NCBI RefSeq assembly: GCF_022539505.1
Contig: NC_061512.1
Location: forward strand, 256,076,510 to 256,140,509
DNA length: 64,000 bases
DNA from: Lolium rigidum
Taxonomy: Eukaryota > Streptophyta > Magnoliopsida > Poales > Poaceae
Reading direction: 5' to 3'
Shown: piece after piece, positions 24,433 to 58,784 of the stretch
Numbering within the stretch: position 1 is the first letter of the stretch
Layout: each line of letters begins with the position of its first letter
Notes under the pieces: generated by a model
The model's input: the letters and a program-made list of their open reading frames with translations, nothing else
What the model was told of the DNA's origin: nothing
The model's database searches: none
Program-made: the position numbers and the translations under genes

Positions 24433-24633
24433 GATCAAGACACGCTGCAAGGAGAGTCTCCACAATCCAATCTCTTTACTTTGTTTTTGTCTTGCTTTAT
24501 TTTATTTACTACTTTGTTTGCTGCATTATATCAAAACACAAAAAAATTAGTTGCTAGCTTTACTTTATTTACTGTCTTGCACTCTATATCAAAAACACAA
24601 AAAAAAATTTACTTGCATTTTACTTTTGTTACC

Positions 24634-26137: not shown

Positions 26138-26237
26138 NNNNNNNNNNNNNNNNNNNNNNNNNNNNNNNNNNNNNNNNNNNNNNNNNNNNNNNNNNNNNNN
26201 NNNNNNNNNNNNNNNNNNNNNNNNNNNNNNNNNNNNN
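26138..26237. other. Assembly gap (100 N)
   Basis: Exactly 100 N are present, a conventional placeholder for unknown length. The left side ends inside element C'; the right side starts inside a coding part of a Tat-type element. Confidence 1.
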
Positions 26238-29200
26238 TTGAGCTCTTTTTGCTGCCTCTTGATGGTCTCGCTGTCAGTTTTCTTTTTCAGCTCTAGCTCG
26301 CCCTTTTCCCTGACATGCTCGGAGTTTTTCTCCGCCAGCTGTTTTTCGGCCTGCTCTTTCTTAAGTTCCGCCTCCTTTAGCTTCGTCTCCAATTCTTGGT
26401 ACGAGGAGCGCAGGTTCTCGAGTTCAGTCGAAGCTGTTGCAAGGGAGGAGGATGCGCCTATAATAATATACGTTAACAGCAAATTTGAAGTCGGAATCTG
26501 GTTAATGACGAAGAAGGCGGAAACCAACCTTGGGCGTCTGCCAGTTGTTTAGCCAGTTCCGCATTCTCATCCTTCAGAGTCCGGATATTTTCCGCCTGAC
26601 TCAGAGTTACGCGGCGCTGCAGGGCAATGTTTTTGTGCAGCTCGTAGTGCAGCGCCTGCTTGTTCTCGTAAAAATTCAACAGTGCAGGAGTAAAAATTCC
26701 GCCTATAACAGTGGTTTCTTTCAAAGCATCATTGCCGGAACTTTTCCGCCATAATGCTTGGGGGCTACTGGTCCATTCTAAAAAACTTTCCCGGAAGTAC
26801 TTTTTTCTCTAAGCATATAAGCGCTAACTATTATTTGAGTTTCCGCATACATGCTTGGGGGCTACTGGGGAGTACCTTTTGCTTACAGACGAGCTTGTCG
26901 AAGAACTGGCCGACATCCTTTTTAAAATCTTGGATCTCCGATGTCGTGGCATCAGGTTTCCCCCAGGCATTGTTCAGCATGGCGTTGAGCAGATCTTGTT
27001 CAAGCTCCCATTTCTCCGCCTCGGACAGCTTGTTGAAAAACTTGGTAGCATACGCCTTGGGGGTGGAAGTGATGTCAGCCGGATCTCCGAAGTTCTTCGG
27101 AAAAACGACGATGTCGCCAGCACCATCTCCGGCCTTCTCAGAAGAAGTGACTTCAGCCTCTCCTTGGCCTTGTTCTCCTGCATCTTCTTGGGCAGGGCCT
27201 TTGGCCTTAGGATCTTCTCCACCTACCTTGTCGCTCGCTGACCGGAATTATTTCCGGTGGAGTGTCCGTGGCGGGAGGGGGAGACGGGTCGGCTCCGAGG
27301 AGGAGATGGCTGAGGAGTAGGGTGAGAGGCACTTGGCGGAGCCGGAGTAGCTGGACCGACTGCCGGAGATTTCTTCATGTATTTGGTAATGGGCTCCTGG
27401 CTGGCGGTCCGCGTGGCAGCGGGTTTCGGGTTCCTGCAAACAAGTGAAAGGATTCAGACAAGAGATAATTTCGCTAAGCTAAAATCGTGTCATGCTCGGA
27501 AACTTACGGGGCGCCGGGGATGATGGGGCGCGTGCCTTGGCCGGCTGTCGAGAGCATCCTCATACGTGCACGCTCCGCTTTCCTTGAGTCTAGTGGAGGT
27601 GGTTTTACCGTCTTCGGTTTCTTGGCGGAGGCCTCGCCGCTAGCTCCGGCCTCAGAGCCGGAAGCCTTGGCGCGGGGACGCTTTGTAGGTCGAGGGGCCG
27701 CCTTGCGAGGTGCCTGTTCCTCTTCCTCCTCGTCGTCATCCGGAACCTCCTCCGCCGTGTCTTCGGTGACGGGGACGCGGACAATGGTGCGAAAGTCTTC
27801 CTCCGCCAAAGTGTTGAGCTGGAAGGAAGATGGATAAAAGTTAAGTTAAACATCCAAAAAGTCGTGAAGTTTGAAGCAGCGAAAAGAACAAAGCTTACCG
27901 GAGGACACTGGTCGTTTGTATAGATGTCTTTGGTCAGTTCCGGGACCTGTTGGCCCCTCGGAATCTTCACCAGTGTCTTGATCCTTCTCTTCAGAGAGTC
28001 GGCCGGAAGGTCGTGGCGGGTAACTCGGAGAAGATCATCCGCCCCGGTATAAGCGCACATCAGGCGCGCGTTGTATCGTAGAGGCTGGATTCTCCGAGAA
28101 AACCAGCTAAGTGTGAGCTGGGCTCCGGTTAGTCCATCGTGGACTAGCCAGGAAATTCTCCGCGCAGCCTTCTCCGGAGTGGGGTGCGGGCGAGCGAAGG
28201 GACGAAGCTCCGGCTTGCAAGCTCTTCCGGAGGTTCGTTGACAAGCCAGGGCAGGCCTTCATGGACTTTCGGAACTGAGGCATTCTTCTCATAAAACCAT
28301 CCGGCGTTCCAGTACCGGACGGATTCGTGCGAGTCATGGGGAGGGTACATGCGACTAGGGCGGAGCATAAACGTCATGCTTCCGCAGTTCACCATTGCTT
28401 TCTCCTTGGTTTCTTTCTTCACCCGGAAAAAGAACTGCCACAATTTGACGTCCGGCCGGATCCCAAGATGTCCTTCGCAGAGAGTCACGAAGTTGGACAA
28501 AAGAAGGTATGAGTTCGGGCAAATGTTGTGTGGCTGGAGCCCGTAGGTGCTGAGGATGGAGAGAAAAAATTCCGAACAAGGAAGTGAAAGACCGCGTTCC
28601 ACCCAAGCCTTAGTCATAACAACTTCTCCGGCTTCTGGCTTGGGGACGACGGAATCACGCGTGAAACTCCAATGTGAGGAGATCATTCCTTCGTTCTGGA
28701 GCTCTCTAAGCTCCACGTCGGTGGTTTCGCAAGGCCACCATTGACCCCTTTCTCCTTCGCGGATCCGGGCCTTGGACGCCTTCTTGTTTTCCGCCTCCTG
28801 CACCTTTGCTGCCATCCGAGCTTGCCCCTCGAGTTCTTCTTGGATCTCTTGGAGGGTAGGAATCCGGCTTGGAGCGGTGCTGGAAGATGCGGAAAAAGGT
28901 TGAGCTAGTCTGATGTCGGAAACATACGGTGGCAGGAATGATATGGGATCCGGGCATATGGGTTCTATCTGATTGGGATCCGGGCTATTCGAAGAGCTAC
29001 CAGTACAAAGTGACGATTCGTGTGGCATGCTTCCGGCTGCACCCATACAAAGTGTTTGAGTACCCGGATCACTAAGCCTATCTTCTACACTAGGTTGTCT
29101 TCTACAAAGCCGATGAACTTACCACTAATGGCGCGGTGGCTCGACGGAGCTCCGGCGGAGATGAGGTCGCCGAACTTGAAGGAAATCGACCCGCGTGACC

Positions 29201-29290
29201 ACGAATCGGCGGCGGAGCGAGTTTCTCGTTCAAACGTGGGAATCTTGGTGCGAAGGGGGCCTTGGTTCGGCGGCGCGTGAAGTTCACCGT
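26238..29290 (-). pseudogene. Antisense additional ORF, gypsy-type 'Transposase_28' (PF04195-like), spliced
   Basis: The approximate exons, read on the minus strand, are 29290-29125, 29060-27900, 27820-27504, 27433-26889, 26720-26535 and 26455-26238, the last cut by the gap. Splice signals can be seen (GCCCCGTAAGTTT donor at 27504, TTGTTTGCAG acceptor at 27433, CGTCTGTAAGC donor at 26889). Exon 2 holds the conserved block (NICPNSYLLLSNFVTLCEGH, then LWQFFFRVKKE) characteristic of the Pfam family named putative gypsy-type transposon. Exon 3 is acidic then basic (EEVPDDDEEEEEQAP). The last exons form a Lys/Glu coiled coil (ELETKLKEAELKKEQAEKQL). A frameshift lies near 28190. Antisense ORFs of this kind are known from Tat/Ogre-lineage elements; their role is not known. 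Confidence 0.65.
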
Positions 29291-29904
29291 AGCGGAGCTC
29301 GCCGGAGTCGAGATCTGGCGGGCGGCGCAGGCGCGAGGAGGAAGACGATGTGGTGAGAGGGGGTGAAAGAATGAGTTTTTACCGGGCTGCGGGGTATTTA
29401 TAGGCCGCGCTTGGAGATTCGGGATCCGGATCCAACGGTGGAAACTGAACGGTCGCGCCGTTGGATGGAAGACACGTGTTTAGGTCAAATGCGGTAAAAC
29501 GACGTGAAGGTAATTTAACCATGCACTCCCGAAAATTCCGGTTGAGGATTTGCATCTGCGAAAATTTAGCGCGGGAAATAAGGAAGTTGTGCGCGGGAAA
29601 TACGGAACTTCCGTTGTTGAGCGTGATCTGAGGATGAAGGATTTCCGAAGCCGTTTGAGTCTTTTAAGATTCCGGATATAATTTGTCTCTCAATCGAGCA
29701 GGGAGTAACCCGGAAATGTTCTTTGGAACGTCGATGGATGAAGTCCCGCGGGATGGGAGCATTTTCCGGCTATAAGTTGGAAAAAGAAGAAAATGCAAAG
29801 TTGGAGCTCTTCAAGTTTCTCCGCGTTACCAACGTTTGCCGGAGATCATGATGGACCAGCAAGGCGGAAATTGCAGGGGAAACTCGGAGAACTCTGGGGG
29901 CTAC

Positions 29905-30462
29905 TGTTGTGGGTATACTTCATAGGTGTACCATCGACGGTGCCTAGATCCGGCAAGCCCGGGTGGCCCACAGACGGTGATGAGGCATGTGGCCCATCGG
30001 GCGGCCCAGTTGCTGTTGATCATGAAGGAAGAAGTCCAGCCCAGGATCAGTAAGCCGGATCCGTACCGCCATAGGAGTAACCCGGATCCATGGAGGCCCA
30101 TGAAGGACCCGGATCCAGGAAGACGAATATGGAAGGCGGATCCGTGACGTGCACGGCAAGATATTGTACCGTAGTTAGGCTATCTGTAATCCGGCTAGGA
30201 CTCTCCATGTAAACCCTAGACCCGTGCGCCTTTATAAGCCGGATCCCGGGAGCCCTAGAGGCACAACCACAACTCATTGTAACAACGCGAAAGTGCCCAG
30301 ATAATTCCAGACAAGCAGCAGTAGGCCCCGTCATCGTGCAGGTGTTCCGAAGCTGGGTAACTCGCGTACCACCGTCCCGTGTGCACTCCGCCCTATGGCC
30401 CCTACTTCTTCTCCCCCTCGTGAGGATCCCTCCTCCGGGGTACCGTCGATTAGGCAACGACA
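29905..30462 (+). repeat. 3' LTR of the Tat-type element
   Basis: It starts TGTTGTGGGTATACTTCATA and ends CAACGACA (558 bp). CTTTATAAGCC near 30229 is the likely promoter element. CGGATCC occurs repeatedly along it. The reverse-oriented partner is 54021-54577. Confidence 0.85.
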
Positions 30463-33400
30463 CCGTGGCTTTTCCGTATCGAAGATTTAGGTCAGGGAGG
30501 CTTAAATAGGCGAAGAGGCGGAGTCGGAAGGGCTACGGGGCAGCCACACAACAGGGGGGGGCGCCCCCCTGGGCCGCGCCGGCCTCATGTGTGGGGCCCA
30601 CCTGGCTCTCCTCTGGCCCCTCTCCGGTGTTCTGGAAGCTTCGTGGAATTATAAGATGCTGGGCGTTGATTTCGTCCGATTCCGAGAATATTTCCTTACT
30701 AGGATTTCTGAAACAAAAAACAACGAGAAAACGAGGAACCGCCGTTCGGCATCTCGTCAATAGGTTAGTTCCGGAAAATGCATAAATATGACATATAATG
30801 TGTATAAAACATGTGAGTATCATCATAAAAGTAGCATGGAACATAAGAAATTATAGATACGTTTGAGACGTATCAAGCATCCCCAAGCTTAGTTCCTACT
30901 CGCCCTCGAGTAGGTAAACGATAACAAGGATAATTTCTGAAGTGACATGCTATCATAATCTTGATCAATACTATTGTAAAGCATATGAGATGAATGCAGC
31001 GATTCGAAGCAATGATGAAGATGATGAGTAAACAAATGAATCATATAGCAAAGACTTTTCATGAATAATACTTTCAAGACAAGCATCAATAAGACTTGCA
31101 TAAGAGTCAACTCATAAAGCAATAAATTCTTAGTAGAAAGTTTTGAAACAACACAAAGGAAGATATAAGTTTCAGCAGTTGCTTTCAACTTCAACATATT
31201 TATCTCATGGATAATTGTCAACATAAAGCAATATAACAAGTGCAATAGGTAAACATGTAAGAATCAATGCACACAGTTGACACAAGTGTTTGCTTCTGAG
31301 ATAGAAAGAAGATAGGTAGACTGACTCAACATAAAGTAAAAGAATGGCCCTTCGCAGAGGGAAGCATGGATTACTATTTTTGTGCTAGAGCTTTTCATTT
31401 TGAAAACATAGAAACAATTTTGTCAACGGTAGTAATAAATCATATGTGTTATGTATAAGACATCCTATAAGTTGCAAGCCTCATGCATAGTATACCAATA
31501 GTGCTCGCACCTTGTCCTAATTAGCTTGGATTAACATGGATTATCATTGCATAGCATATGTTTCAACCAAGTGTCACAAAGGGGTACCTCTATGCCGCTC
31601 TGTACAAAGGTCTAAGGAGAAAGTTCGCATTGGATTTCTCGCTTTTGATTATTCTCAACTTAGACATCCATACCGGGACAACATAGACAACGAGATAATG
31701 GACTCCTCTTTAATGCATAAGCATTCAACAACGAGATAAAATTCTCATAAGAGATTGAGGATTGATGTCCAAACGGAAACTTCCACCATGATTCATGGCT
31801 TTAGTTAGCGGCCCAATGTTCTTCTCTAACAATATGCATACTCAAACCATTTGATCATGAAAATCGCCCTTACTTCAGACAAGACGAACATGCATAGCAA
31901 CTCACATGATATTCAACAAAGGTATAAAAGTTGATGGCGTCCCCAGAAGCATGGTTACCGCTCAACAAGCAACTTATAAGAAATAAGATACATAGCTACA
32001 TATTCTTCACCACAATAGTTTTTAAGGCTATTTTCCCATGAGCTATATATTTTAAAGACAAAGAATAGAATTTTAAAGGTAGCACTCAAGTAATGTACTT
32101 TGGAATGGCAGAGAAATACCATGTAGTAGGTAGGTATGGTGGACACAAATGGCATAGTATTTGGCTCAAGGATTTGGATGCACGAGAAGAATTTCTCTCA
32201 ATACAAGGCTAGGCTAGCAAGGTTGTTTGAAGCAAACTCAAGTATAAAAGGTGCAGCAAAGCTCACATATGAACATATTGTAAGTATTATAAGACTTTAC
32301 ATTGTCTCCTTGTTGTTCAAACACCTTAACCAGAAAATATCTAGACTCTAGAGAAACCAATCATGCAAACCAAATTTTAACAAGCTCTATGTAGTTCTTC
32401 ATTAATGGGTGCAAAGTACATGATGCAAGAGCTTAAACATGATCTATATGAGCACAACAATTGCCAAGTATCACATTATTCAAGACATTATACCATTTAC
32501 CACATGCGGCATTTTCTGTTTCCAACCATATAATAATGAATGAAGTAGTTCAACATTCGCAATGAACATTAAAAGTATAGCTAAGAACACATGTGTTCAT
32601 ATGAAACAGCGGAGCGTGTCTCTCTCCCACACAAGCATGTATTTATTCGGAGAATGAAAATAATAAAACGAAAATAAAAGCACACAGACGCTCCAAGTAA
32701 AGCACATAAGATGTGACGGAATAAAAATATAGTTTCACTAGAGGTGACCTGATAAGTTGTCGATGAAGAAGGGGATGCCCAAGGCATCCCCAAACTTAGA
32801 TGCTTGAGTCTTCTTGAAATATACAGGGATGAACCACGGGGGCATCCCCAAGCTTAGACTTTTCACTCTTCTTGATCATATTTTATCATCCTCCTCTCTT
32901 GACCCTTGAAAACTTCCTCCACACCAAACTCAAAACAAACTCATTAAAGGGTTAGTGCGTAATCAAAAATTCACATATTCAGAGGTGACACAATCATTCT
33001 TAACACTTCTGGACATTACCCAAAGCTACTGAAAATTAATGGAACAAAGAAATCCATCAAACATAGCAAAACAGGCAATGCGAAATAAAAGACAGAATCT
33101 AACAAAATAGAACAGTCCGTAAAGACGAATTTTTTAGAGGCACCAGACTTGCTCAGATGAAAATGCTCAAATTGAATGAAAGTTGCGTACATATCTGAGG
33201 ATCACGCACGTAAATTGGCAGATTTTTCTGAGTTACCTACAGAGAATCCTACTCAAATTCGTGACAGCCAAGAAATCTGTTTCACGCGCAAGTAATCCAA
33301 ATCTAGTATTGACTTTACTATCAAAGACTTTACTTGGCACAACAATGCAATAACATAAAGATAAGAAGAGGTTGTTACAGTAGTAACAACTTCCAAGACT

Positions 33401-34878
33401 CAAATATAAAACAAAATTGCTGTAGTAAAATAAAGACATGGGTTATCTCCCTAGAAGTGCTTTCTTTATAGCCATTAAGATGGGCTCAGCAGTTTTAATG
33501 ATGCACTCGCAAGAAATAAGAGTTGAAGCAAAAGAGAGCATCAAGAAGCAAATTCAAAACAAATTTAAGCCTAACCCACTTCCTATGAAAAGGAATCTTG
33601 TAAATAAACAAATTCATGAAGCATAATGCAACAAGCATAGAAAGATAAAACAAGTGTAACTTCAAAAATTTCAGCATATAGAGAGGTGTTTTAGTAACAT
33701 GAAAATTTCTACAACCATATTTTCCTCTCTCATAATGATTTTCAGTAGCATCATGAACAAACTCAACAATATAACTATCAAATGAAACATTCTTATCATG
33801 AGCTATATGCATAAAATTATTACTCTCCACATAAGCATAATCAATTTTATTAGTTGTAGTGGGAGCAAATTCAACAAAGTAGCTATCATTATTATTCTCA
33901 TCAAGTGTAGGAGGCATAGTATAATCATAATAAAATTTACTCTCCATAGTAGGCGGCACCAAAAGACCACTATCATTATAATCATCATAAATCGGAGGCA
34001 AAGTATCATCAAAGAAAATTTTCTCCTCAAAACTTGGGGGACTAAAAATATCATGCTTATCAAAACCAGCTTCCCCAAGCTTAGAATTTTCCATATCATT
34101 AGCAACAATGGTGTTCAAAGCGTTCATACTAATATCATTGCTACTAGCATGCAAATAAGTTTCCATAAGTTTTTTAATTTTCGCATCAAACAATCCATGT
34201 CTTAACTCAGGAAATAGAATAAGAAGCTCATTGTTATTTTCCATTATGCCTAACTAGTGAAAAATAAAAACAAGAAATAAAAAGATGCAATTGCAGGATC
34301 TAAAGGAAATAGCTTCGAGCACTCACACACCGGCAACAATGCTAGGAAATAGCTTAGTAGTCGGAGGATGTGAATACCTTTTACCTTACCTCCCCGGCAA
34401 CGGCGCCAGAAAATAGCTTGATGTCTACGCACGCTTCTATTCCTGTAGACAGTGTTGGGCCTCCAAGAGCAGAGGTTTGTAGAACATCAGCAAGTTTCCC
34501 TTAAGTGAATCACCCAAGGTTTAGAGGACAAAGATATCTCTCTCAAGCAACCCTGCAATCACGATACAAGAAGTCTCTTGTGTCCCCAACACACCTAATA
34601 CACTTGTCAGATGTATAGGTGCACTAGTTCGGCGAAGAGATAGTGAAATACAAGTGGTATGAATGAATATGAGCAGTAGTAACGGCGCCGTAAAATAGCT
34701 TGCCGGGCGTGCGATTGATGGTAGTAATATTGCAGGAAGTAAAGATGCGAGAAAATAGTAAATAAGCGATGATTGCAGTATTTGGAAACAAGGCCTAGGG
34801 ATCATACTTTCACTAGTGGACACTCTCAACATTGATCACATAATAAAACCACTCTACACTCTCTTGTTGGATGATGAA
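30463..34878 (-). mobile_element. Athila-like element A, internal region and LTR parts
   Basis: Read on the minus strand: the last 460 bases of the 5' LTR (34878-34419, ending GTAGACATCA), the PBS CTGGCGCCGTTGCCGGGGAG just inside it, an intact ORF (34244-33495), about 2.6 kb of non-coding DNA, the polypurine-like GCTTGGGGATGCT, and the first 413 bases of the 3' LTR (30875-30463). The Tat element interrupts the 3' LTR. Element B interrupts the 5' LTR at 34878. The rest of the 5' LTR is at 43496-44891 and the rest of the 3' LTR at 54583-56042. Confidence 0.85.
33495..34244 (-). CDS. Putative membrane protein of element A (intact)
   Basis: An intact 249-codon frame starts at the ATG at 34244, about 170 bases inside the PBS, where gag would normally begin. 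Residues 1-50 look helical (MENNNELLILFPELRHGLFD). Residues 60-165 are acidic and rich in Asp, Asn and Tyr, with repeated DDTLPPIYDDYNDS-like and DYTMPP motifs. The C-terminus has two hydrophobic segments (FLKLHLFYLSMLVALCFMNL and FVLNLLLDALFCFNSYFL), so a membrane location is likely. No gag, protease, reverse transcriptase or zinc-knuckle motif is visible. The same ORF, interrupted, is in element B. The function is unknown; an env-like origin is possible but unproven. Confidence 0.6.
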   Translation of the reverse strand: MENNNELLILFPELRHGLFDAKIKKLMETYLHASSNDISMNALNTIVANDMENSKLGEAGFDKHDIFSPPSFEEKIFFDDTLPPIYDDYNDSGLLVPPTMESKFYYDYTMPPTLDENNNDSYFVEFAPTTTNKIDYAYVESNNFMHIAHDKNVSFDSYIVEFVHDATENHYERGKYGCRNFHVTKTPLYMLKFLKLHLFYLSMLVALCFMNLFIYKIPFHRKWVRLKFVLNLLLDALFCFNSYFLRVHH

Positions 34879-36363
34879 TGATACGTCTCAAACGTATCTA
34901 TAATTTCTTATGTTCCATGCTACTTTTATGATGATACTTACATGTTTTATACACACTTTACATCGTTTTGATGCATTTTCCGGAACTAACCTATTGACGA
35001 GATGCCGAAGGACCAGCTTGCTCGTTTTCTGCTGTTTTTGGTTTCGTAAATCCTAGTAAGGAAATATTCTTGGAATCGGACGAAATCAACGCCCAGCATC
35101 TTAGAATTCCACGGAGCTTCCAGAACACCCGAGAGCCACCAGAGGGGAGCCCTGGGGGGCCCACACGTGTGGGCGCCGCGGCCAGGGGGTAGGGCATGCG
35201 CCCCTAGTGTGTGGTCCCACCAGGACTCCACCGACCTTGCCCTTCCGCCTACTTAAAGCCTCCGTCGCGAAAACCCTAGACGGAAAAGCCACGGTACGAG
35301 AAACCTTCCAGAGCCGCCGCCATCGCGAAGCCAAGATCTGGGGGACAGGAGTCTCTGTTCCGGCACGCCGCCGGGACGGGGAAGTGCCCCCGAAGGCATC
35401 TCCATCAACACCACCGCCATCTTCATCACCGCTGCCGTCTCCCATGAGGAGGGAGTAGTTCTCCATCGAGGCTAAGGGCCGTACCGGTAGCTATGTGGTT
35501 AATCTCTCTCCTATGTACTTCAATACAATGATCTCATGAGCTGCCTTACATGATTGAGATTCATATGAGTTTTGTATCACTATTCATCTATGTGTTACTC
35601 TAGTGATGTTATTAAAGTATTCTATTCCTCCTTCATGGTGTAACGGTGACAAGGTGTGCATCATGTAAGTACTTGGCGTAGGTTATGATTGTAATCTCTT
35701 GTAGATTATGAAGTTAATTATTACTATGATAGTATTGATGTGATCTATTCCTCCTTCATAATGTGATGGTGACAGTGTGCATGCTATGTTAGTACTTGGT
35801 GTAATTGCAATGATCTATCATGCACTCTAAGGTTATTTAAATATGAATATCGAATGTTGTGGAGCTTGTTAACTCCGGCATTGAGGTGCTCTTGTAGCCC
35901 TACACAATTAGTGGTGTTCATCATCCAACAAGAGAGTGTAGAGTGGTTTTATTATGTGATCAATATTGAGAGTGTCCACTAGTGAAAGTATGATCCCTAG
36001 GCCTTGTTTCCAAACACTGAAACTCCGTTTATTTATCGTTTCGTTGCATGTTTACTCGCTGCCATATTTTATTCAGATTGCTATTACCACTCATATACAT
36101 CCATACTACTTGTATTTCACTATCTCTTCGCCGAACTAGTGCACCTATACATCCGACAAGTGTATTAGGTGTGTTGGGGACACAAGAGACTTCTTGTATC
36201 GTGATTGCAGTGGTTGCTTGAGAGGGATATCTTTGTCCTCTTCCTCCCCGAGTTCGATAAACCTTGGGTGATCCACTTAAGGGAAACTTGCCGCTGTTCT
36301 ACAAACCTCTCGCTCTTGGAGGCCCAACACTGTCTACAAGAATAGAAGCACCCGTAGACATCA
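34879..36363 (+). repeat. 5' LTR of element B
   Basis: TGATACGTCTCAAACGTATC starts it and GTAGACATCA ends it (1485 bp). It is nearly identical to 42013-43495, with scattered substitutions, so the insertion is fairly young. Confidence 0.9.
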
Positions 36364-36677
36364 AGCACTTTTCTCGGCGCCGTTGCCGGGAGGAAAGGTA
36401 AAATACACTCATACTCCGGTCCCGTGTAACCGAGTACTTTTCTCGTTGCCATTGTGTGAGTGTTCGAAGCTATTTCCTTTAGATCCCGCAATTGTATCTT
36501 TTTGTTTCTTGTTAAACACTAGTAAGGCATAATGGAAAACATCTGTGAGCTTTTTATACTATTTCCTGAGTCAAGACATGAATGGTTTAATGCGAAAATT
36601 AAAATACCTATGGAATCTTATTTGCATGCTAGTGGCAATGATATTAGTATGAACGCTTTGAACACCATTGTTGCTAA

Positions 36678-37900
36678 CGGATGAAGCTCGGTGATCACAT
36701 GGGTACGTGAGCACGCGTTTATTGCACGACACGTGTCTAACATCGTTAGTTTGCCGTTTGTATCTGAGATGGAACGCAACGTGTGGTCTAAAAAGTAAAG
36801 CCAGACCTCCTTTATCCTTCTCAATCGAGAGCCCCGCTAATCCCCATCGACAGAACGACCTCGCTGGAAACAGCTCGAACAGCGCCGGAAGATCTAGAGT
36901 CAACGGGATGCCGGATGCGCAGCTTTGGCCGGATTCGGAAGCGATTCTTCGTCGCCGGCGCTGGTAAAATAGGGAGGCAGAGGCTGCCCCGACCGTCCAG
37001 CCGCCGCCCCGACCTGCCTTCTCTCCGCGATTCGAGCGGAACACCTGCCGAACTCCCTCGCGAATCCCACCATCCGGAGCACCTGCAGGTAGCAGATGAC
37101 CCGGAAGAGGACGCAGATCATGAAGAAGACGGCGGTGCGGTAGACCCAGGAGGCGACGTCGAGCGCGCAGGCGGCGGCGTTCCACCGGGGGAGCGGAACG
37201 GAGCGGCGTCCCGAGCACTCGGCAGGGCCTTGTACGCGGCGTCGGCGAGGGAGCAGGGCACGAGGAAGCATGCGAGGACGCGGAAGGAGCGGGCCAGCTG
37301 CGCGGTGTAGCCCGCACGCACCGCGTCGGAGTCATGGCGGAGGCGGTCGATGCAGAGCAGGCGGCGCAGGCCCACCCGGAGCAGCGAGGCGAGGGAGAGG
37401 TGCGCGAGCGCGGCCGCCAGCGTGAGCGAGGCCTGCACCTGCCCGTCGAAGGGCCGGTCCGGCGTGTCGGGAGGGAGCGCGAGGGTGACGGCCGCGGGCG
37501 CCGCCACGGCTAGGAGGAAGAAGGCCGCCCAGGAACCCGCGGAGCGGGGACCGGAGATGTGGTCGACGCACATCCAGCGGAGGCAGGCCCGGAAGCTGCG
37601 GAGCTCGTCCCGCGCGTGCGACGCGCATCGGGTGTACAGCGCCGCCGACGGATCCCGATGCGGCGGTGCGCCAAGGGGAGGTGGCCGGTTGGGGCCGCGT
37701 CTGACTTCTCGCCTGTGAGCTGCAACCAAAAAAGGGGAAAGCAGGGGCTAGGAGTGGGAGGTGATGCGGGGAAAGCAAGGGAAGCAGCCAAAAAGGGTTT
37801 CACGCCGTTGGTCGTCGTGAGGCAGCAATTAAATCTCAACGTTGATCCAACGGTGACTAGAGGGTGCGCACGTACCCCCCTGAACACCAAATCCACTCTC
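36678..37900. mobile_element. Pack-MULE-like element carrying a DUF3537 fragment
   Basis: TTGTTGCTAA is duplicated exactly at 36668-36677 and 37901-37910; element A carries the empty site. The right end read in reverse (GAGAGTGGATTTGGTGTTCA, then GGGGGGTACGTGCGCACCC) matches the left end of the insertion at 40649. The left end (CGGATGAAGCTCGGTG) matches the right end of that insertion. The 9-10 bp target, terminal repeats and captured GC-rich host sequence fit a Pack-MULE. No transposase is present. Confidence 0.8.
37030..37705 (-). pseudogene. Captured DUF3537 (PF12056-like) gene fragment
   Basis: The minus strand encodes a typical stretch of this plant membrane-protein family: HARDELRSFRACLRWMCVDH, a hydrophobic helix (AGSWAAFFLLAVAAPAAVTL), RRLLCIDRLRHDSDAVRAGY, TAQLARSFRVLACFLVPCSL, then after a frameshift near 37200 CALDVASWVYRTAVFFMICV and FRVICYLQVLRMVGFARE. 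Upstream, TTTTTTGGTTGCAG looks like a captured intron end with its acceptor. The family's function is not established. The GC content is far above that of the surrounding retrotransposon, as expected for a host exon. The donor gene lies outside this window. Confidence 0.75.
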
Positions 37901-41656: not shown

Positions 41657-42012
41657 TATTGCTTTATGTTGACAACTATCCATGAGATATACATGTTACA
41701 AGTTGAAAGCAATTGCTGAAACTTAATCATCCTTTGTGTTGCTTCAATGCCTTTACTTTGAATTTATTGCTTTATGAGTAACTCTTATGCAAGTCTTATT
41801 GATGCTTGTCTTGAAAGTATTATTCATGAAAAGTCTTTGCTATATGATTCAGTTGTTTACTCATTGTCTTTACCATTGCTTTGAATCGCTGCATTCATCT
41901 CATATGATTTACAATAGTATTGATCAAGATTATGATAGCATGTCACTTCAGAAATTATCCTTGTTATCGTTTACCTACTCGAGGGCGAGTAGGAACTAAG
42001 CTTGGGGATGCT

Positions 42013-43495
42013 TGATACGTCTCAAACGTATCTATAATTTCTTATGTTCCATGCTACTTTTATGATGATACTTACATGTTTTATACACACTTTACATCGT
42101 TTTGATGCATTTTCCGGAACTAACCTATTAACGAGATGCCGAAGGGCCAGCTTGTCTGTTTTCGCTGTTTTTGGTTTCAGAAATCCTAGTAAGGAAATAT
42201 TCTCGGAATCGGACGAAATCAACGCCCAGCATCTTAGAATTCCACGGAGCTTCCAGAACACCCAAGAGCCACCAGAGGGGAGCCCTGGGGGGCCCACACG
42301 TGTGGGCGGCGCGGCCAGGGGGTAGGGCGCGCCCCCCTAGTGTGTGGTCCCACCAGGACTCCACCGACCTTGCCCTTCCGCCTACTTAAAGCCTCCGTCG
42401 TGAAAACCCTAGACGGAAAAGCCACGGTACGAGAAACCTTCCAGAGCCGCCGCCATCGCGAAGCCAAGATCTGGGGGACAGGAGTCTCTGCTCCGGCACG
42501 CCGCCGGGACGGGGAAGTGCCCCCGGAAGGCATCTCCATCGACACCACCGCCATCTTCATCACCGCTGCCGTCTCCCATGAGGAGGGAGTAGTTCTCCAT
42601 CGAGGCTAAGGGCTGTACCGGTAGCTATGTGGTTAATCTCTCTCCTATGTACTTCAATACAATGATCTCATGAGCTGCCTTACATGATTGAGATTCATAT
42701 GAGTTTTGTATCACTATTCATCTATGTGTTACTCTAGTGATGTTATTAAAGTATTCTATTCCTCCTTCATGGTGTAACGGTGACAGTGTGTGCATCATGT
42801 AAGTACTTGGCGTAGGTTATGATTGTAATCTCTTGTAGATTATGAAGTTAATTATTACTATGATAGTATTGATGTGATCTATTCCTCCTTCATAGTGTGA
42901 TGGTGACAGTGTGCATGCTATGTTAGTACTTGGTGTAATTGCAATGATCTATCATGCACTCTAAGGTTATTTAAATATGAATATCGAATGTTGTGGAGCT
43001 TGTTAACTCCGGCATTGAGGTGCTCTTGTAGCCCTACACAATTAGTGGTGTTCATCATCCAACAAGAGAGTGTAGAGTGGTTTTATTATGTGATCAATGT
43101 TGAGAGTGTCCACTAGTGAAAGTATGATCCCTAGGCCTTGTTTCCAAACACCGAAACTCCGTTTATTTATTGTTCGTTGCATGTTTACTCGCTGCCATAT
43201 TTTATTCAGATTGCTATTACCACTCATATACATCCATACTACTTGTATTTCACTATCTCTTCGCCGAACTAGTGCACCTATACATCCGATAAGTGTATTA
43301 GGTGTGTTGGGGACACAAGAGACTTCTTGTATCGTGATTGCAGGGGTTGCTTGAGAGGGATATCTTTGTCCTCTTCCTCCCCGAGTTCGATAAACCTTGG
43401 GTGATCCACTTAAGGGAAACTTGCTGCTGTTCTACAAACCTCTGCTCTTGGAGGCCCAACACTGTCTACAAGAATAGAAGCACCCGTAGACATCA
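42013..43495 (+). repeat. 3' LTR of element B
   Basis: It has the same ends as the 5' LTR (1483 bp) and is followed by the target duplication ATGAA. It lacks a roughly 370-base block present in the LTRs of A (about 43850-44220). Confidence 0.9.
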
Positions 43496-44891
43496 ATGAA
43501 CACCATTAATTGTGTAGGGCTACAAGAGCACCTCAATGCCGGAGTTAACAAGCTCCACAACATTCAATGTTCATATTTAAATAACCTTAGAGTGCATGAC
43601 AGACCAACGCAATTATACCGAGTACTAACATAGCATGCACACTGTCACCTTCAAGCTACGAAAGGGGGAATAGATCACATCAATACTATCATAGTAATAG
43701 TTAACTTCGTAATCTACAAGAGATCACAATCATAAACTACGCCAAGTACTACATGATGCACACACTCGTCACCATTACATCATGGAGGAGGAATAGACTA
43801 CTTTAATAACATCACTAGAGTAGCACATAGATTAATAGTGATATAAAGCACATTGCAATCATAAAAGAATATAAATAAGCACTTCACTATGCTATTCTGA
43901 ATTACTCTTTGGCAAGATAACGAACACTAATTCATCATGTAGGCAAACCTTAAAGATGTATTCCCAAGTACTAATAAACACCCCACGCTGTCACTGTGAG
44001 CATTCATAGGAGGTACTAACACGCCACAATTTCATAGAGACATCCAACTCAAATCATAACTCAGTGAATAAGTATTCTGTGAAATATAGCCTAAGAGACC
44101 CACACGGTGCACACACTGTCACCTTTACACACGTGGGACAATGAGTCTCCGGAGATCACATAAGTAAAATCCACTTGAATAGCATAACAACATCTATATT
44201 ACAAGCTCATCATATGGATCTCAATCATGTAAGGCAGCTCATGAGATCATTGTATTGAAGTACATGGGAGAGAGATTAACCACATAGCTACCGGTACAGC
44301 CCTTAGCCTCGATGGAGAACTACTCCCTCCTCATGGGAGACAAGCAGCGGTGATGAAGATGGCGGTGGTGTCGATGGAGATGCCTTCCGGGGGGACTTCC
44401 CCGTCCCGGCGGCGTGCCGAAACAGAGACTTCTGTCCCCCAGATCTTGGCTTCGCGATGGCGGCGGCTCTGGAAGGTTTCTCGTACAGTGGCTTTTCCGT
44501 ATCGAAGAATTAGGTCAGGGAGGCTTAAATAGGCGAAGAGGCGGAGTCGGAAGGGCTACGGGGCAGCCACACAACAGGGGGGGCCCTGGGCCGCGCCGGC
44601 CTCATGTGTGGGGCCCACCTGGCTCTCCTCTGGCCCCTCTCCGGTGTTCTGGAAGGTTCGTGGAATTATAAGATGCTGGGCGTTGATTTCGTCCGATTCC
44701 GAGAATATTTCCTTACTAAGATTTCTGAAACCAAAAACAGCAGAAAACAGGAACTGGCCCTTCGGCATCTCGTCAATAGGTTAGTTCCGGAAAATGCATA
44801 AATATGACATATAATGTGTATAAAACATGTGAGTATCATCATAAAAGTAGCATGAAACATAAGAAATTATAGATACGTTTGAGACGTATCA
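43496..44891 (-). mobile_element. Element A, outer part of its 5' LTR
   Basis: Homology to the LTR family resumes directly after element B's target duplication. Read on the minus strand it starts TGATACGTCTCAAACG at 44891. CTCCC at 44892-44896 is the target duplication, matching GGGAG at 56043-56047. Near 44490 this LTR shows the uninterrupted sequence AAGCCACTGTACGAGAAACC, the empty form of the site hit by the Tat element in the other LTR. Confidence 0.85.
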
Positions 44892-45382
44892 CTCCCCAGG
44901 TGACCTACGAGATCAATGGAAATGAATACAACAAGCCATATTATCTTGCTGATGGCATCTACCCTGACTGGGTCACACTGGTGAAGACAGTCCGTAATCC
45001 AAACTCTGAGAAGACGAGGAGGTTTGCCAAGATGCAAGAGGCTTGCAGGAAAGATGTGGAGTGTGGATTTGGTGTGCTCCAAGCTCGGTGGGCAATTGTC
45101 CGTCACCCGGCAAGAACATGGTCGCTGAAGACCATGCATGAGGTGATGACATGTTGCGTGATCATGCACAACATGATCGTTGAGAACGAGCGTCCTGATG
45201 GCCGCAATGAGAACCACTGAGAATTCAAATGTGAGCTGGTTGCGCCACTTCATGGAGCTTCATCTTGGGAGGACTATCTACATATGAATGTAGAAGTCAC
45301 TAACGAGAACATCTGCAAACAGCTGCAAACGGATCTGATTGAGTATCAGTGGACATTGGTTGGGCATGAAGATCATGCCTAG
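44892..45382 (+). pseudogene. PIF/Harbinger transposase, C-terminal part
   Basis: The frame opens at the LTR junction (PQVTYEINGNEYNKPYYLAD) and contains the catalytic Glu in KDVECGFGVLQARW (codon 45059-45061) and CCVIMHNMIVENER. A TGA at 45218-45220 interrupts it, but the same frame continues with FKCELVAPLHGASSWEDYLH to a TAG at 45380. The N-terminal part, with both catalytic Asp residues, is at 56043-56870 on the other strand. The break is exactly at the target site of element A. Confidence 0.85.
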
Positions 45383-46937
45383 AGAAATACTATCTTATTT
45401 TCATGCAGGCTTTTCAAAATTTGAATGTAATAGTTGGATTCTTTATTTTGTTGTTTGAAAACTTCATAATTGATGCAAACGCGGAAATGTGTCGTACCGC
45501 TGGAGCCACCCTCAGGCGCAAACGGACGCGCGGATAAAAACGGTCTGTCTAGCATCGGCCGCGCGACGCAAACGGGGTTAGCGGACACCGAAATGCGTCG
45601 CGCCGCTAGAGAGCTGCAAACGGAGCAGCTGCCTACGAAATCTGCCTTTCGAATAGGATGACACGTCTACGTCATGATTTCTTCTCGAACTGTCCACGTC
45701 TTGATTTGATTTGCACACCAAACTGAGGAACCTTGGAGACTGTTTGTGTATTGTGGACTATGACAGAGGGTCGACGCTCGCTGTTTGGCCGACAAGAGAC
45801 AGCCCCCGTCACCCGTGTATGTAGGTAGAGGGCGGAGCGGTCGATGGTGACGGCCGGCGCGCGGTGCTTTCTCGCGTCGCCGTCGGTGGCCCGGTGGCCG
45901 TGGAGTGGAGCGGGACGGATCGGTTCGCCGGAACCAGAAAACATGCTACGGGTGCTGGAAACTCTGAAAATCGGGAGCGACCAAATTCGCTTCTTGGTAG
46001 CGTACATGGATCTAGTTTCCGTATATTTCAAAGATCGAACCGCTTGTTTGATGGCACGCGTGTTTCGTTTGTACTCCGCTATCATCCTTGTAGTCTGAAG
46101 TTTTCGAGGGAGGCGATAGTACAGCAACGCATCGCTGTTTCAGCTCCATGCCGCTGCCGGCCTGCTCACCGATGACGGATAGATAGATCTGGCGCCAGTG
46201 GGCCAGCTACGGTGCTTGCTGTCTTTTTTTTTAAAGAACGAAGACCACAACGACCTGGAGCTTGCATTACTTCGGCCATGGGTAAACAGCTACACATCAG
46301 ACTTTACGGAAGTTGAAAATTACACAATATGGCCTTGCACTTTTACATGGAACACCCTACAAAAATAGCAACGGCTTGAAATGGGGAGGAGGGACAACGA
46401 GACTCTGTCTCGCTGAGCTGTGGAAAAAAAAGTAGAAAAATAACAATTCAATTGACATAAACGGAAATCTGTGGCGTGCAACCCGGTCGCACCGAACTTT
46501 CAGCAAAGACAAAAAGTTTTCTTGCCTTGACAATTCGGATGAGACAGCAGCAGAAGATGAAGGGGATTTGTCTGATCTGTTTCAGTGCTCTTTTTGCGGT
46601 GCCCAAATGTGCAGGCAAGGCAAGGGAGAAAAGATTAATTCCTGTCCAATTGGCATCAGTAGCGTAAAGCTGCACGCAGAAAGGAGATACGCATCAGAAT
46701 AATGGAGAGCGTATCGTCTCGCGCGCGCTGGCGGCCAGGATTTCCTCACCGTGATTACTGATTAGCCTAGCTCGTTCACCGTATACCTTGCTCGCGTTGC
46801 CTGGCTCCATGTACGCATCTTCTGGTGGTTGACCAACGGTTATATGCTATCGTTAGTTCGTTACAGCATCTCTAGCAATGGCATCGTTACAAGGTCTCTA
46901 GCAGATACCATAAAAATGGCAAGACCATATAATGCTC
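45383..46937. other. Harbinger subterminal region, then unassigned DNA
   Basis: Bases 45470-45620 contain GCAAACG and GCGTCGCGCCG-type blocks like those of the MITE at 7431-7851; GCGTCGCGCCGCTAGAGAGC may be the decayed end of the PIF element. From 45620 to 46937 no gene or element was recognised. Confidence 0.35.
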
Positions 46938-46940
46938 TTA

Positions 46941-47478
46941 GATAATCTCCAATCAGCTCCCATACAGCGTCAGGCAAAGGCGAGTTGTGTATGGGGAGCT
47001 CCGGCTCAAGATTTTTCTATGTGGGGCTGTTTTCCTAGCCGTGCTCCCCCTAAATCCCCCTCCCCTTCCTCCCCTCCTAAATTTTAAAAACGGTGTGAAT
47101 GTAGGAAGTAGATACATATGTATGGCGCAAACTCAACAATCACGGAGCAGTTCAGCTCATACATAGTAACATGAAATTAAAACAGGAAAAAGAACTAGTC
47201 AAGGCCGAGGCGGTTGTAGAAGACGATGTAGTCGCTGTCTTCATCGTAGCTCCCGTCCTTGGGCTCCACCTAGGAGCTGCAGCCTTGGCCGAGGTTGCCA
47301 CGGCGGTGCGGTGGAGAGTCCTCCACCTCGAAGACGATGCTGAGGGAATTTCAACCGCGGCTCCTTGCCACCTGCGATGTGCTCGGGGACATCGGCGAGC
47401 ATGCATTCGAGCACGCCCCATCAGATTCGGCGCGCCAAGGAGTTCTTGGTCGGGGGCGGCGGGCGATTGGAGATGCTC
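46941..47478. mobile_element. PIF/Harbinger-type MITE
   Basis: TTA flanks it at 46938-46940 and 47479-47481. The right end read in reverse is GAGCATCTCCAATCGCC; the left end GATAATCTCCAATCAGC is the same with changes. It is non-coding apart from short chance frames. Confidence 0.7.
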
Positions 47479-47481
47479 TTA

Positions 47482-48625
47482 TGGTCGTGCCATGATTCTT
47501 GCCACGCATTCCTGGGATGAGGTGGAAAAAAAGAGGAGCTGTTCTAGTGGACCCTTGCCTCGTTGCCGTATTCTCTTGACCGTTGGACTGGATCATCGGG
47601 CGCGCTGGGTAGACTGGTAGAGTAATCATCTGCAACAACCTTGAAACGGTCGAAGAGTGTGTAGCATCGTATCGATGATTCGATGGTGCGTCGTGGTGGG
47701 CGCACCGCATGCGCCGATTGATTTGCTGTGGGATCGTGCCCACGGGTTTGCCGCCAGCTGAATCGCAGCATCAGCAAGGGTCTGGGGTCAACCCTGTGCG
47801 CTTGGTGCTTCAGTAACTGACGGCCTGACGACGACGCGCGCGCACTAAAAGTGTGAGGTGTAGTAACTGGCAACCTAACCGTGTGGCACGCTGTTACGCT
47901 TCGCTTTGGTTGCGGCAGTTTGCGGTTGCATGAAAGCGACGCGAAACCTACACAAGAGACCCGAATAAAGTAGGTTCCGCACGTAGTGTAGTATATTGTT
48001 TTTCGGAGGTGAAGATCCAGGTACGTACTAGTGGCGTTGGGCAAGTTGGGTTTGGGGAGCTGCACAAGTCGACAGCCACCGAGTCCCGGGGCCAAAACGT
48101 CCATCTCCAGCTTGTGCCGCTCTCCCTCTGGGAGCGTCCTCCGTGCGCCACCTCCATCTCCACCACGCAAGACGCCTACGGGAGCAGCAGCCCATCGCCA
48201 TCATCAAATCCGTCGTCGTCGGCCACGCCCGCGACGTGCCCCGCCGCCCACCACATCTCAGCTCGCTCTTCCAGTCTCCCCTGTTCAGTAACTTCAGTGC
48301 AAGTGCAACAGTGAGCCTTGGCGCACGCAACGCATACTATGATATCCCCCCACCACACCACACCACGCGAGCGAGTAGTATGGCCTATGCCATGGGAGCT
48401 GGGCCCTGCCTGCGTTCCCGATCTGGATCTGGCCGACCAGAAATAGGAGCCGTAGATGCGACCACCGTTGCGCTTGCGCGCGTTCCACCAACACGGCACC
48501 GCACCCACACCCACGCACGCAGGAGACCCGTTTCCTTTCTTCAACGCACGCACCAGCACAGGGAACAAAATAAAACTTTCGCAAAAAAAAAAAAAAAAAA
48601 CCACAAACGCCTGATCCAACGCGTA
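47482..48625. other. Unassigned GC-rich stretch
   Basis: Several overlapping short frames exist, but none has recognisable similarity. CCCCTGTTCAGTAACT near 48285 could be a splice donor of a decayed host exon. A run of 18 A lies at 48583-48600. Confidence 0.3.
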
Positions 48626-49310
48626 AGGGCATCTCCAACGGAGGTTGAGCAATTGTTTGCGTCAGCACGGACGAAACATGCGTTTGGACCCTGCTCCAAC
48701 GGGGTGACGCATAGCGATCGGGCAGTCCGCAGCGACGCATATGTTTCGAATGATGCGAGCAGAGCGGTCTGGTCACCGGCGCACTCGAAGCGGCTACGTA
48801 CGTTCTCGTTGTCGTCTGTGATGTCATGGATGACGGCGTATGTGGGTGGGGTCACCGCAAGGGCGGCGCTAGCCGCCACCATCTACGCCTGTGCATCGGC
48901 GATTTCCGCCCTACCCGCCCCCAGCCGCTGACGCTCTAGCTCGCGCCCTGTCGCCTCCGCTTCCGCAACCTCCGCCTCCGCCGCCTCCCGGTCCAGCTGC
49001 TTGGCCTGAAAGGCGTCGGCGGTTAGCTGCTCCTCCTCCTCCGGGTGGACTTGGCGGCACATCTGTACAACTTGATCCCAGCTAAGGTTGTGCTCGGCCA
49101 TGGATGGATGCTAGGGTTTAGGTTGAGGTGTGGCCGTCACCCCCGTCGGTGTCCACCAAACATAGCCACGACGGGCGGGAAACGGCGTTCGCGCGCAGGT
49201 CCTTTCCCGCGTGCGCGAAACACCGGCGAAACGCGCCAATCTATTGGGCACGAGCGGGAACCGGTAATCGTCGGCGGTAGGCCTCGACGGGACGTTAAAC
49301 CGCCATTAAC
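48626..49310. mobile_element. PIF/Harbinger-like element, one end visible
   Basis: The left end GGGCATCTCCAACGGAGG follows TAA, the expected target triplet. A minus-strand ORF lies inside. No matching right terminus was found, so the right limit is only where recognisable similarity fades. Confidence 0.5.
48660..49101 (-). pseudogene. Coiled-coil ORF of a Harbinger-like element, one stop
   Basis: The frame starts MAEHNLSWDQVVQMCRQVHP at 49101. A Glu/Ala-rich helical stretch follows (DREAAEAEVAEAEATGRELE). A TAG stops it at 48883-48885, after which the same frame continues (PPTYAVIHDITDDNENVRSR). It occupies the same position, and is of similar composition, as the ORF at 16955-17374, but the sequences are not obviously homologous. 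The function is unknown. Confidence 0.45.
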
Positions 49311-49375
49311 GGCCTTGATGGTGTTTATGCTTAAAAAAATGCGTGAAAGAACATCTCTCGGGTTATAGTTTTATA

Positions 49376-52070
49376 TGTTTGATGACAATATATGTGATAC
49401 ACTAATGTGCGTTGATATAGTGCAGAAATTAGTTGTTGTTGAAGTTGTGTTGAGAAAGAAGAAAAAGAAAGCAGGAATGTTACTCTAGGCCGGAAAATAT
49501 GAAAAACAACTAAGGACATGAGTGTCGAAACCCCCTGGACTCTGGCCGGATATTTGGTCGGATGTTCTTGTCGAGCCCGGATATTCCGGGGTGGCCGGAT
49601 TATCTGGTCCATACTTAGGCCGGATTATCCAGCCCCAAATTCCTGCAACGGCTCGATTCTCAGGGAGTATAAATACCCCTTCTTCCTCAACCTCAAGATG
49701 CTCATTCCTACTCAAGTTCGTCCACCATTAGAGTCACACCAAGAAACACAAGATTCACTAGATCTCCTCTTCCAACTATCCAAAGCTCTTGACCTTTGGA
49801 GAATCAAAGGAGAAGACCGCGATCTACATCTTCACTGAAGCGATTTACATTTCCTCCTCATTTGCTTGAGGACCCCTTTGCTAGTGTTCCATTTGGAAAC
49901 ACTAGTTGCTTGTGGTTGATTTGTTCTTATTATTGTTGTTGTGTTGTTACAGCTATTGGGAGCGTCCAATTCAGTTGTGGATGCGTGCCCCAAGAACCTT
50001 GTAAAGATCTGGTTTCCGCCTTGAGGAAATCCCTTAGTGGAACTGGGCTAGGCCTTTGTGGCGTTGCTCACAGGAGACCTAAGTGAGGCCTTCGTGGTCC
50101 TCCAAACGTAGACGTACTTCCTCTTAAAAGGAAGGAACTACGAGAATCATCTTCGTGTCTCCGCGTGCTCTACTCTCGATTACCTCTATCCTTAATAGCT
50201 CTATTATATCTTGTCTAGCTATATCTTGCTAGTTATATATCTTGTCATATAAGTTCACATAGTTGCATATCTAGAGAATTTATCTTTGTGTCAAGCCTAA
50301 ATTGAAAAAGAACTAAAAATTAGGTAGCACCTAATCACCCCCCTCTAGGTGCGACACACGATCCTTTCAATTGGTATCAGAGCCTCAGCTCTTATTTTGG
50401 GCTTAAACCGCCTAAGAGTATGCCAGATGATGGGCATTCGGAAGGGGCCGCAAAGCCGGCCTCCATGGAGGATCTCAAGTTGATGGAAACATCATCGAGA
50501 TCCTTCATGGAAGCTAATATGGAAATATGAAGACATATTTTTCGGGGCTTATAAAACCTACCCCTCCCGCCGTTCCTGTCATAGAGGAAAATGACAAGGA
50601 CTCTTTAGAAGAGGGAGAGACTTTGGGCTCACCCTCTACTATAAAGCCCTTCGATGGTGATCACTTAGACAAAATTAAAACCCCTCACACTTCTCCTAAA
50701 AAGGGTGATGGTGACAGCTACAATGCCATTCCTCCTCCGTTTCGCTCTCCCGATATCCCGTTTCCCCACCCTTATATAAACAATAGGGGTGATCCACCCA
50801 AGTTTAATGTTGAAGATTTTAATAAGTGGCAATTTGAGTTTCGCTCTTATGTATGCACTGCCTCTAATGAGTTTTGGAGAATCATTGTTGAAGGTTTCAA
50901 GCCTTACAACCCCAACAAATTGAATAGAAGAGAAGATGTTGATAACAAACTCAACTCCATTTCCTTAAACATGATTAAACAAGGTGTGGGGACAAAGGAC
51001 TTGTCTTATGTTCGTAACTTCACCACCGCAAGGAAGCTTGGGAGGGCTTGTCCGTAATCTTTATGGGAAGTGAAAGAATGAAGAGAAACAAGTATAGTGC
51101 TCTTCGAAACCAAGACGAAGGGTTCATGAGGTTGCCAGTTGAAGATCATCATGAGATGTATAGAAGGCTTATCACCATTGCCGATGCCTTTCAGAATGTG
51201 GGTGCCCAACATATTGATGACTTTTGGATCAAGCACAAGTATATTGATTGCATGATGCCTTATAAACCCATTGATGTCAAGAGTCTCCTTGGAAGAGAAA
51301 ACTATCCTAAACTAACCTCCTATCAAGTGGTGCACGATATGCAAGCGCTCAAGGTGGCCGGACAAAACTCTCAAGATTCTTGGAATCATGCTATAGGGAT
51401 GGCGAGAGGTACAAATCTTGCTTTGAAGATCAATACGGTGGAAGAGATGGACACTCAAGAACCATATAGGACCTCTTGGAGCATGTCCTATCCGGAGGAT
51501 TTGGAATACCACTACCATGACCATATGGTATTCCATGCATGAACCTTTTGGGTTGATCCATCCAAAGCAAAGTAAGAAAACATCAAGAGAAACAAAACAA
51601 GTGGGTTCAAGAGCTCGGGTCGAAGATCAAGATCTTGCTTCAGTTGTGGTGACAAGTTTCATTTCATCGTCGAGTGCCCCTATGAGAATAGAGAAACTCA
51701 TGGTGGAAGACTCATTTCCAAGAACAAGAGCAAAGATTCAAACGCCCCCAACAAGAAACTCTACATCTAGAATAACAAGAACAAGAGGCTATCAAGGATT
51801 GTGCTAATGACTAAGAAGAGTATTCTTCCGACGACAATGATAGTGATAGTGATGAAGAAGAGACCTCAAAGGAAGTGGCCGCTATTGCTACTATCAATAT
51901 TCCCTCTTCATCCCTCTTTGAATCCCCCAGTGAGAACCCTCACATCCAGAATGCACATTGCTTCATGACAAGGTCCTCCTTGAATACATCTATTGTGCTA
52001 GGAGCATTCCAACGAAGGGCTCTATATCTCGATGATGTAAAATCAGTTTGCAGCACGCTGGGCTCACTTT
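49376..52070 (+). mobile_element. Truncated copia element (LTR, PBS, broken gag)
   Basis: The LTR ends at 50369 (CGATCCTTTCA) and is followed by the PBS TGGTATCAGAGC at 50372-50383, the initiator-Met tRNA site used by copia elements. AGTATAAATACCCC at 49666 is the promoter-like element. The LTR start (about 49376, TGTTTGATGACAA) is a guess. Only gag-like sequence follows; protease, integrase and reverse transcriptase are absent and no 3' LTR is seen. Confidence 0.7.
50420..52040 (+). pseudogene. Copia gag (UBN2-like) with zinc knuckle, pseudogene
   Basis: The leader MPDDGHSEGAAKPASMEDLK is followed after a stop by the main frame from 50527. The gag core (FNVEDFNKWQFEFRSYVCTA) matches the copia UBN2 pattern. 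A frameshift near 51045 moves the reading to the frame with FMGSERMKRNKYSALRNQDE, which runs to 51542. A zinc knuckle CFSCGDKFHFIVEC (C-X2-C-X4-H-X4-C) follows in another frame near 51640. An acidic tail ends the similarity by about 52040. Confidence 0.7.
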
Positions 52071-52079
52071 TTGGGTGAG

Positions 52080-52732
52080 CAGCCATGTGCCGCTTCACCA
52101 GACGCACTAAAATGCAGCACGAAGTGGGGTAGCGCTTTACCAGAGGCCGTAAAACAGAGTTCCATAAACTTAGGGCCTTTTTATGTGTGCCACCGTAGGA
52201 TGGAGCCGTAGAGTGAATCCTGCATGGTTGCGCGTAGCGGAGCTTTCGGGCCGGTCCCTATGGGCGGGATCCTAGACGGGGTTTCTCAACGTAGTTTTGG
52301 GTCCCGCCAAATGCCAGGATTCTTTTGAGACCGCCGGTGCGAGGCTATTTTTTGCAATACTTTTTTTTATAAAACTATATTCATGTAAACTATCAATGGG
52401 GAATGATGTGTATTTTTTTACTACAAAAAATGACAAAAGTGTGAATCTGAATATAGTGATTTTAAAGCTCTAAAAATATTAGACTTTATAACTTTTGTTC
52501 AACTCATGATATGAAATATTTTGAATTGAGATTGTAGGTTTGTCAGGATTTTGCTCCATGATTTTTTTTTGAAATACGTAAAGATAGTTTTCGAATTTTT
52601 AAAATATACAGATAGCCCTGGATGTCGGGAGCCAAAAAGGACATTCCGGTAGATTCTCTGTATAAATTACACTTTGGAGAAATCTTGAGCTCGTTTTGAA
52701 CTTTTCTGCGAGTGAGTCACCCTGGAGTGGAG
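52080..52732. other. Unassigned end of contig B
   Basis: Bases 52040-52330 hold repeat-like sequence (TTTGCAGCACGCTGGGCTC and GTTTTGGGTCCCGCC) of unknown type. The rest is AT-rich. The frame crossing the gap from the right contig is a coincidence of open reading through N. Confidence 0.3.
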
Positions 52733-52832
52733 NNNNNNNNNNNNNNNNNNNNNNNNNNNNNNNNNNNNNNNNNNNNNNNNNNNNNNNNNNNNNNNNNNNN
52801 NNNNNNNNNNNNNNNNNNNNNNNNNNNNNNNN
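52733..52832. other. Assembly gap (100 N)
   Basis: Exactly 100 N. The right side starts inside the 5' coding part of the Tat-type element. Confidence 1.
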
Positions 52833-53962: not shown

Positions 53963-54020
53963 GGCGGAACCCTCCCGGTTCCGGCCTCCGGACGCCACGA
54001 GCCCCACGGTGGGCGCCAAC

Positions 54021-54577: not shown

Positions 54578-54582
54578 CACGG

Positions 54583-58780: not shown

Positions 58781-58784
58781 AACC

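Follow-up and report, generated by a model that had tools for sequence, protein, structure and literature searches.

The middle contig of a 64,000-bp stretch of the Lolium rigidum reference genome, here called contig B, is very probably present as the reverse complement of its true orientation. The stretch, which we will call the window, corresponds to C5:256076510–256140509 in the searched assembly (2,438,458,167 bases, 1,764 sequences). Contig B (26238–52732, 26,495 bp) is joined to contig A on its left and to contig C, which runs past the edge of the window, on its right, in each case through a spacer of exactly 100 N (26138–26237 and 52733–52832). A preliminary description of this DNA had noted both gaps correctly and had proposed, from three junctions, that contig B is inverted. 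Artificial spacers on either side of a contig are what an orientation error calls for; these were presumably written by ALLHiC, a point for which a literature search gave no confirming paper. A Tat retrotransposon, a second retrotransposon (element A), and a PIF/Harbinger transposase gene are each split between contigs B and C, with their halves on the wrong relative strands, and contig B has to be read on its minus strand to agree with contig C. The assembly was made from nanopore reads, which were assembled into contigs by Flye, scaffolded by ALLHiC, and then manually curated in Juicebox, and is reported as 2.44 Gb in 1,764 scaffolds with an N50 of 361.79 Mb (PMC9664059). The same report gives 70.4% duplicated Viridiplantae BUSCOs, and its authors describe the placing of contigs as easier than in polyploids (PMC9664059).

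The Tat element shows the general features of a long terminal repeat (LTR) retrotransposon, namely two LTRs, a primer-binding-site (PBS)-like motif, a polypurine-tract (PPT)-like motif, and a 5-bp target duplication. On contig B, its 3′ interior part (26238–29904, plus strand) ends with GGGGGCTAC directly ahead of the 3′ LTR (29905–30462, plus strand), which is followed by the target duplication copy CCGTG (30463–30467), CACGG on the other strand. On contig C, the 5′ LTR (54021–54577, minus strand) continues on the minus strand with TGGCGCCCACCGTGGGG, which adjoins it, into the 5′ interior part (52833–54020, minus strand), and the second copy of the duplication, CACGG, lies on its outer side at 54578–54582. 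We take TGGCGCCCACCGTGGGG to be the PBS-like and GGGGGCTAC the PPT-like motif. The LTRs were located by self-comparison of the window, which was used for all LTR pairs and pieces, and by alignment; 29905–30461 (plus) and 54022–54577 (minus) lie on opposite strands and are identical at 544 of 555 aligned positions (97.5% in the self-comparison). Both the opposite strands and the outer flanks are thus as they had been described. Since the PBS-like side is on contig C and the PPT-like side on contig B, contig C carries the 5′ half and contig B the 3′ half of the element, and the two inner ends (52833 on contig C and 26238 on contig B) must therefore point toward each other.

The sequence beyond the two Tat LTRs belongs to element A, whose 3′ LTR has been cut by the Tat insertion into a first part on contig B (30463–30884, minus strand) and a remainder on contig C (54578–56042, plus strand). 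The preliminary description had recognized these as the halves of one LTR, and this is borne out by their matches to the uninterrupted minus-strand LTR on contig B: the half at 30462–30875 matches 44485–44891, and the half at 54578–55571 matches 43496–44490. The target site near 44490 in this uninterrupted 5′ LTR reads CACTG, one base off CACGG. The exact Tat target AAGCCACGGTACGAGAAACC is unbroken in both LTRs of B2, a further element described below, with ACGAGAAACC at 35296 and 42429. Element A has its own target duplication, present as CTCCC on contig B (44892–44896) and as GGGAG on contig C (56043–56047), again as earlier described. Read along the minus strand, contig B therefore gives GGGAG, the element A 5′ LTR containing B2, the interior, the start of the 3′ LTR, CACGG, and Tat, and the plus strand of contig C gives the end of the Tat LTR at 54577, CACGG, the rest of the element A 3′ LTR, and GGGAG.

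Within contig B, the 5′ LTR of element A is itself cut by B2 into a first part (43496–44891, minus strand) and a last part (34419–34878, minus strand), and the interior occupies 30885–34418 (minus strand), its ends being set by the LTR ends together with PPT-like and PBS-like motifs. B2 lies at 34879–43495 (plus strand) with LTRs at 34879–36364 and 42013–43495; the self-comparison gave same-strand LTRs at 34873–36364 and 42007–43496, and the ends were refined from the printed sequence. The B2 target duplication ATGAA (34874–34878 and 43496–43500) has the ordinary same-strand form and serves as an internal control within contig B. The LTRs are identical at 1811 of 1853 aligned positions in element A (in three pieces) and at 1456 of 1482 in B2; together with the Tat value, these divergences fit the nesting order, with differences too small to count as evidence. 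B2 and element A belong to one family. Three of their interior open reading frames (ORFs) were scanned (33495–34253, 36792–37310, and 37861–38517, further interior ORFs being present); none matched a Pfam family with E ≤ 0.01, so that these three lend no support to the Athila label of the preliminary description, and both elements may be non-autonomous.

The third split feature is a PIF/Harbinger transposase gene at the insertion site of element A. Its N-terminal piece, which ends in KAP, is on the minus strand of contig C (56043–56783) and covers positions 2–103 of the 205 of PF04827 (Plant_tran), and its C-terminal piece, which starts with QVT, is on the plus strand of contig B (44897–45217) and covers positions 104–202. 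Both pieces match PF04827 (E 8.4e-45 and 1.8e-44), in agreement with the split between KAP and QVT that had been proposed; DDE_Tnp_4 on the contig B piece reaches 23.5 bits, below its cut-off of 24.8. The two pieces were also matched separately, and never joined, against 120 listed homologues of 424 found. Both pieces match 69 of the 120, the other 51 being matched by the contig C piece only, and in 65 of the 69 shared homologues the pieces abut with an offset of 0 (for the remaining four, the offsets are −6, −34, −43, and −50). Lolium proteins are among the best matches. In the Lolium multiflorum protein P0013, for instance, the contig C piece corresponds to residues 102–254 (94%) and the contig B piece to residues 255–361 (93%). 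A further PIF-type transposase fragment is found on contig A (20231–20695, plus strand; DDE_Tnp_4, E 1.8e-08); it covers Plant_tran 137–198, which is also covered by the contig B piece, and is therefore a separate copy.

Other Tat copies in the genome provide a comparison for the layout of the split element. Two probes, 52833–53333 from the contig C side and 26238–26737 from the contig B side, were searched against the whole assembly, and the best 40 of 1,362 and the best 40 of 1,049 candidates, respectively, were scored. Among these best 40 matches per probe, nine pairs lie less than 40 kb apart, made up of the window and eight other Tat copies; the remaining 31 matches per probe have no partner, as expected from lists of this kind. 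All eight other paired copies carry the probes on opposite strands, separated by 7,312–7,438 bp, and the contig B side lies beyond the 52833 edge. The window differs from all eight, having its probes on the same strand and 26,095 bp apart. If the window copy is full-length, the spacing in the other copies means that the 100-N gap stands for ~7.4 kb.

For each probe, 30 of the best 40 loci were also examined for sequence past the contig edge, with one non-window locus as the reference. With the contig B probe, 29 non-window loci share sequence past the 26238 edge, with alignments starting no more than 11 bp from it. With the contig C probe, 29 non-window loci share sequence past the 52833 edge, and the best single alignment comes within 50 bp of this edge in 27 of the 29, those of the other two (L021 and L028) ending ~525–600 bp short. 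The window's own locus shows no match past either edge. The Tat coding middle of the window copy would lie in the gap. The middle of one of the other copies (L081) was scanned for domains in 10 of its 21 ORFs, five of which matched; from the contig B side to the contig C side, on the minus strand, they are integrase (rve), RVT_3, RT_RNaseH, RVT_1, and gag. The hallmark of the Tat lineage is a second RNase H between the RNase H of the polymerase and the integrase, and the domain order in L081 supports in this way the Tat label of the preliminary description, in a region that is missing from the window copy. Two antisense reading frames are present in the Tat 3′ part on contig B. One (28144–29118, minus strand) matches PF04195 (Transposase_28, E 2.5e-20), and the other (26238–26548, minus strand) looks coiled-coil-like by eye and enters the gap.

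The flanks of Tat, the flanks of element A, the transposase, and the layout of the other Tat copies are largely independent of one another and show, at the level of sequence, that the 26238 end of contig B belongs with the 52833 end of contig C. On reversing contig B, Tat, element A, and the transposase all become continuous, and the Tat strand layout then matches that of all eight other paired copies. The simplest correction is to reverse contig B in place. The proposed inversion is thereby supported by all three junctions and by the other Tat copies on its contig C side, and the neighbourhood of contigs A and B, that is, contig A adjoining the 52732 end of a contig B flipped in place, is inferred from the scaffold order. 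From these observations, we consider it highly probable that contig B was misoriented during Hi-C scaffolding. It is very probably an artefact rather than a real inversion of the chromosome.

The nesting shows the order of events at the locus. The PIF/Harbinger transposase gene was first interrupted by element A, with the 5-bp duplication GGGAG, and later insertions placed B2 in the element A 5′ LTR and Tat in its 3′ LTR (with the duplication CACGG), in either order. On either side, the contigs break off within the repetitive interior of Tat, which would leave ~7.4 kb unassembled. In scaffolding, the 26.5-kb contig B would have been joined to its neighbours by 100-N spacers but flipped, which would put the Tat, element A, and transposase halves on the wrong relative strands.

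A real inversion of at least 26.5 kb in the sequenced plant, with one breakpoint in the missing middle of Tat and the other in the gap between contigs A and B, would leave identical junction evidence, and recombination between repeats would place breakpoints just where assemblies break. Such an inversion would possibly have arisen by ectopic recombination with an inverted Tat copy hidden in the other gap. It requires, however, both breakpoints to fall inside the two unsequenced stretches of the window, and we rate it as very unlikely, since contig joins and breakpoints would need to coincide twice; a misoriented short contig requires no such coincidence. The Tat-mediated form further requires the second, inverted Tat, and there is about one Tat candidate per 1.8 Mb (a rough count from the 1,362 candidates of one Tat probe in 2.44 Gb). 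Nothing in the window, including contig A, matches the L081 Tat middle, which also speaks against it. The other way in which the junctions could be accommodated is a wrong contig order, in which the 26238 end of contig B meets the 52833 end of contig C, contig B or contig C belongs elsewhere, and contig A is not a neighbour. The junctions settle the adjacency of contigs B and C only and are equally at ease with this arrangement, but scaffolding put the three contigs together and the in-place flip of contig B is the smallest single change, so that a wrong order appears improbable.

Tat elements are common in the genome, and it is conceivable in principle that separate members of the same families, lying in opposite orientation, have matching flanks by coincidence. 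For random places in the window, the chance of one reverse-complement match of five bases is 0.0011, and that of two independent 5-bp duplications together is ~1e-6, a figure that leaves aside the LTR halves and the protein evidence. Separate elements would in addition have to supply complementary halves of one LTR, complementary 5′ and 3′ halves of Tat, and transposase pieces that complement each other as exactly as the offsets in the homologues indicate. The probability of such a coincidence is negligible.

Several points weigh against a flip of contig B during scaffolding. The support comes from the sequence of one assembly. The side facing contig A has no independent feature; contig A ends inside a repeat, and no feature joining its end to the 52732 end of contig B was seen. 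In a search for an alternative-haplotype copy, no near-identical second place was found for 52001–52732 of contig B among the best 40 of 134 candidates scored, the best place besides its own being a 77% match over ~150 bases. PIF/Harbinger elements have terminal inverted repeats and a 3-bp target duplication, and a single ungapped search of 45217–52732 against 56784–59900 gave no convincing pair of such repeats, which would have added a further junction. Finally, the Lolium rigidum assembly was curated by hand, as mentioned above (PMC9664059), and the local layout produced by ALLHiC is described as more accurate than that of 3D-DNA (PMC7672694).

The 52732 end of contig B is low-copy, although contigs usually break in repeats, and offers a suitable anchor for mapped reads. 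The polymerase chain reaction between 26300 and 52900 that the preliminary description recommended would not be locus-specific, since both primers lie in a repeat (the source of the 1,049 and 1,362 probe candidates). Contig A ends in a diverged member of the A/B2 family (22726–26137, plus strand) with an LTR start near 22735, and its 25517–26136 is 88% identical to 38523–39150 in the A/B2 interior; any remainder of this element would be expected in the first gap. On contig C, a 1,143-aa open frame (59752–63183, plus strand) with Retrotrans_gag and an aspartyl protease marks a retrotransposon that reads toward the right edge of the window.

The reference genome of a major herbicide-resistant weed thus appears to hold a flipped contig on C5 near 256.1 Mb, a matter of practical rather than biological importance. 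Against other Lolium genomes, the flipped contig would appear as a false 26-kb inversion. A nested LTR element that is split over a gap can be used to audit contig orientation and to estimate gap size without reads, the cues being the outer target duplications, the PBS and PPT sides, and the strand layout in other copies. No published report of this orientation error was met in a thin literature search on Lolium genome inversion and misassembly. We regard the orientation of contig B as very probably a familiar type of assembly artefact, without unusual biology.

Repeat-mediated inversion between inverted LTR elements would also leave mismatched flanks on opposite strands. In such inversions the breakpoints would be in the recombined repeats, whereas those of contig B are at two 100-N joins. 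Contig B resembles the local orientation errors described for HiC-Hiker, in which a short contig keeps its position between its neighbours but is reverse-complemented (PMC7672694). Before correction, these errors are given as 4.3% in human and 11.7% in worm 3D-DNA scaffolds; Hi-C orientation is described as harder for shorter contigs, and manual repair of many short contigs as infeasible (PMC7672694). The rates were obtained with short-read contigs and ALLHiC is rated better in the same paper, and they are therefore a rough guide only here. The HiC-Hiker errors were found against a reference, whereas that of contig B was found by nested transposon anatomy. LTR elements also serve as a yardstick of assembly quality in the LTR Assembly Index (PMC6265445), a value of which has been reported for the Lolium rigidum assembly (PMC9664059). 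As described, that index scores continuity (PMC6265445), whereas in contig B it is the flanks and halves of split elements that reveal orientation.

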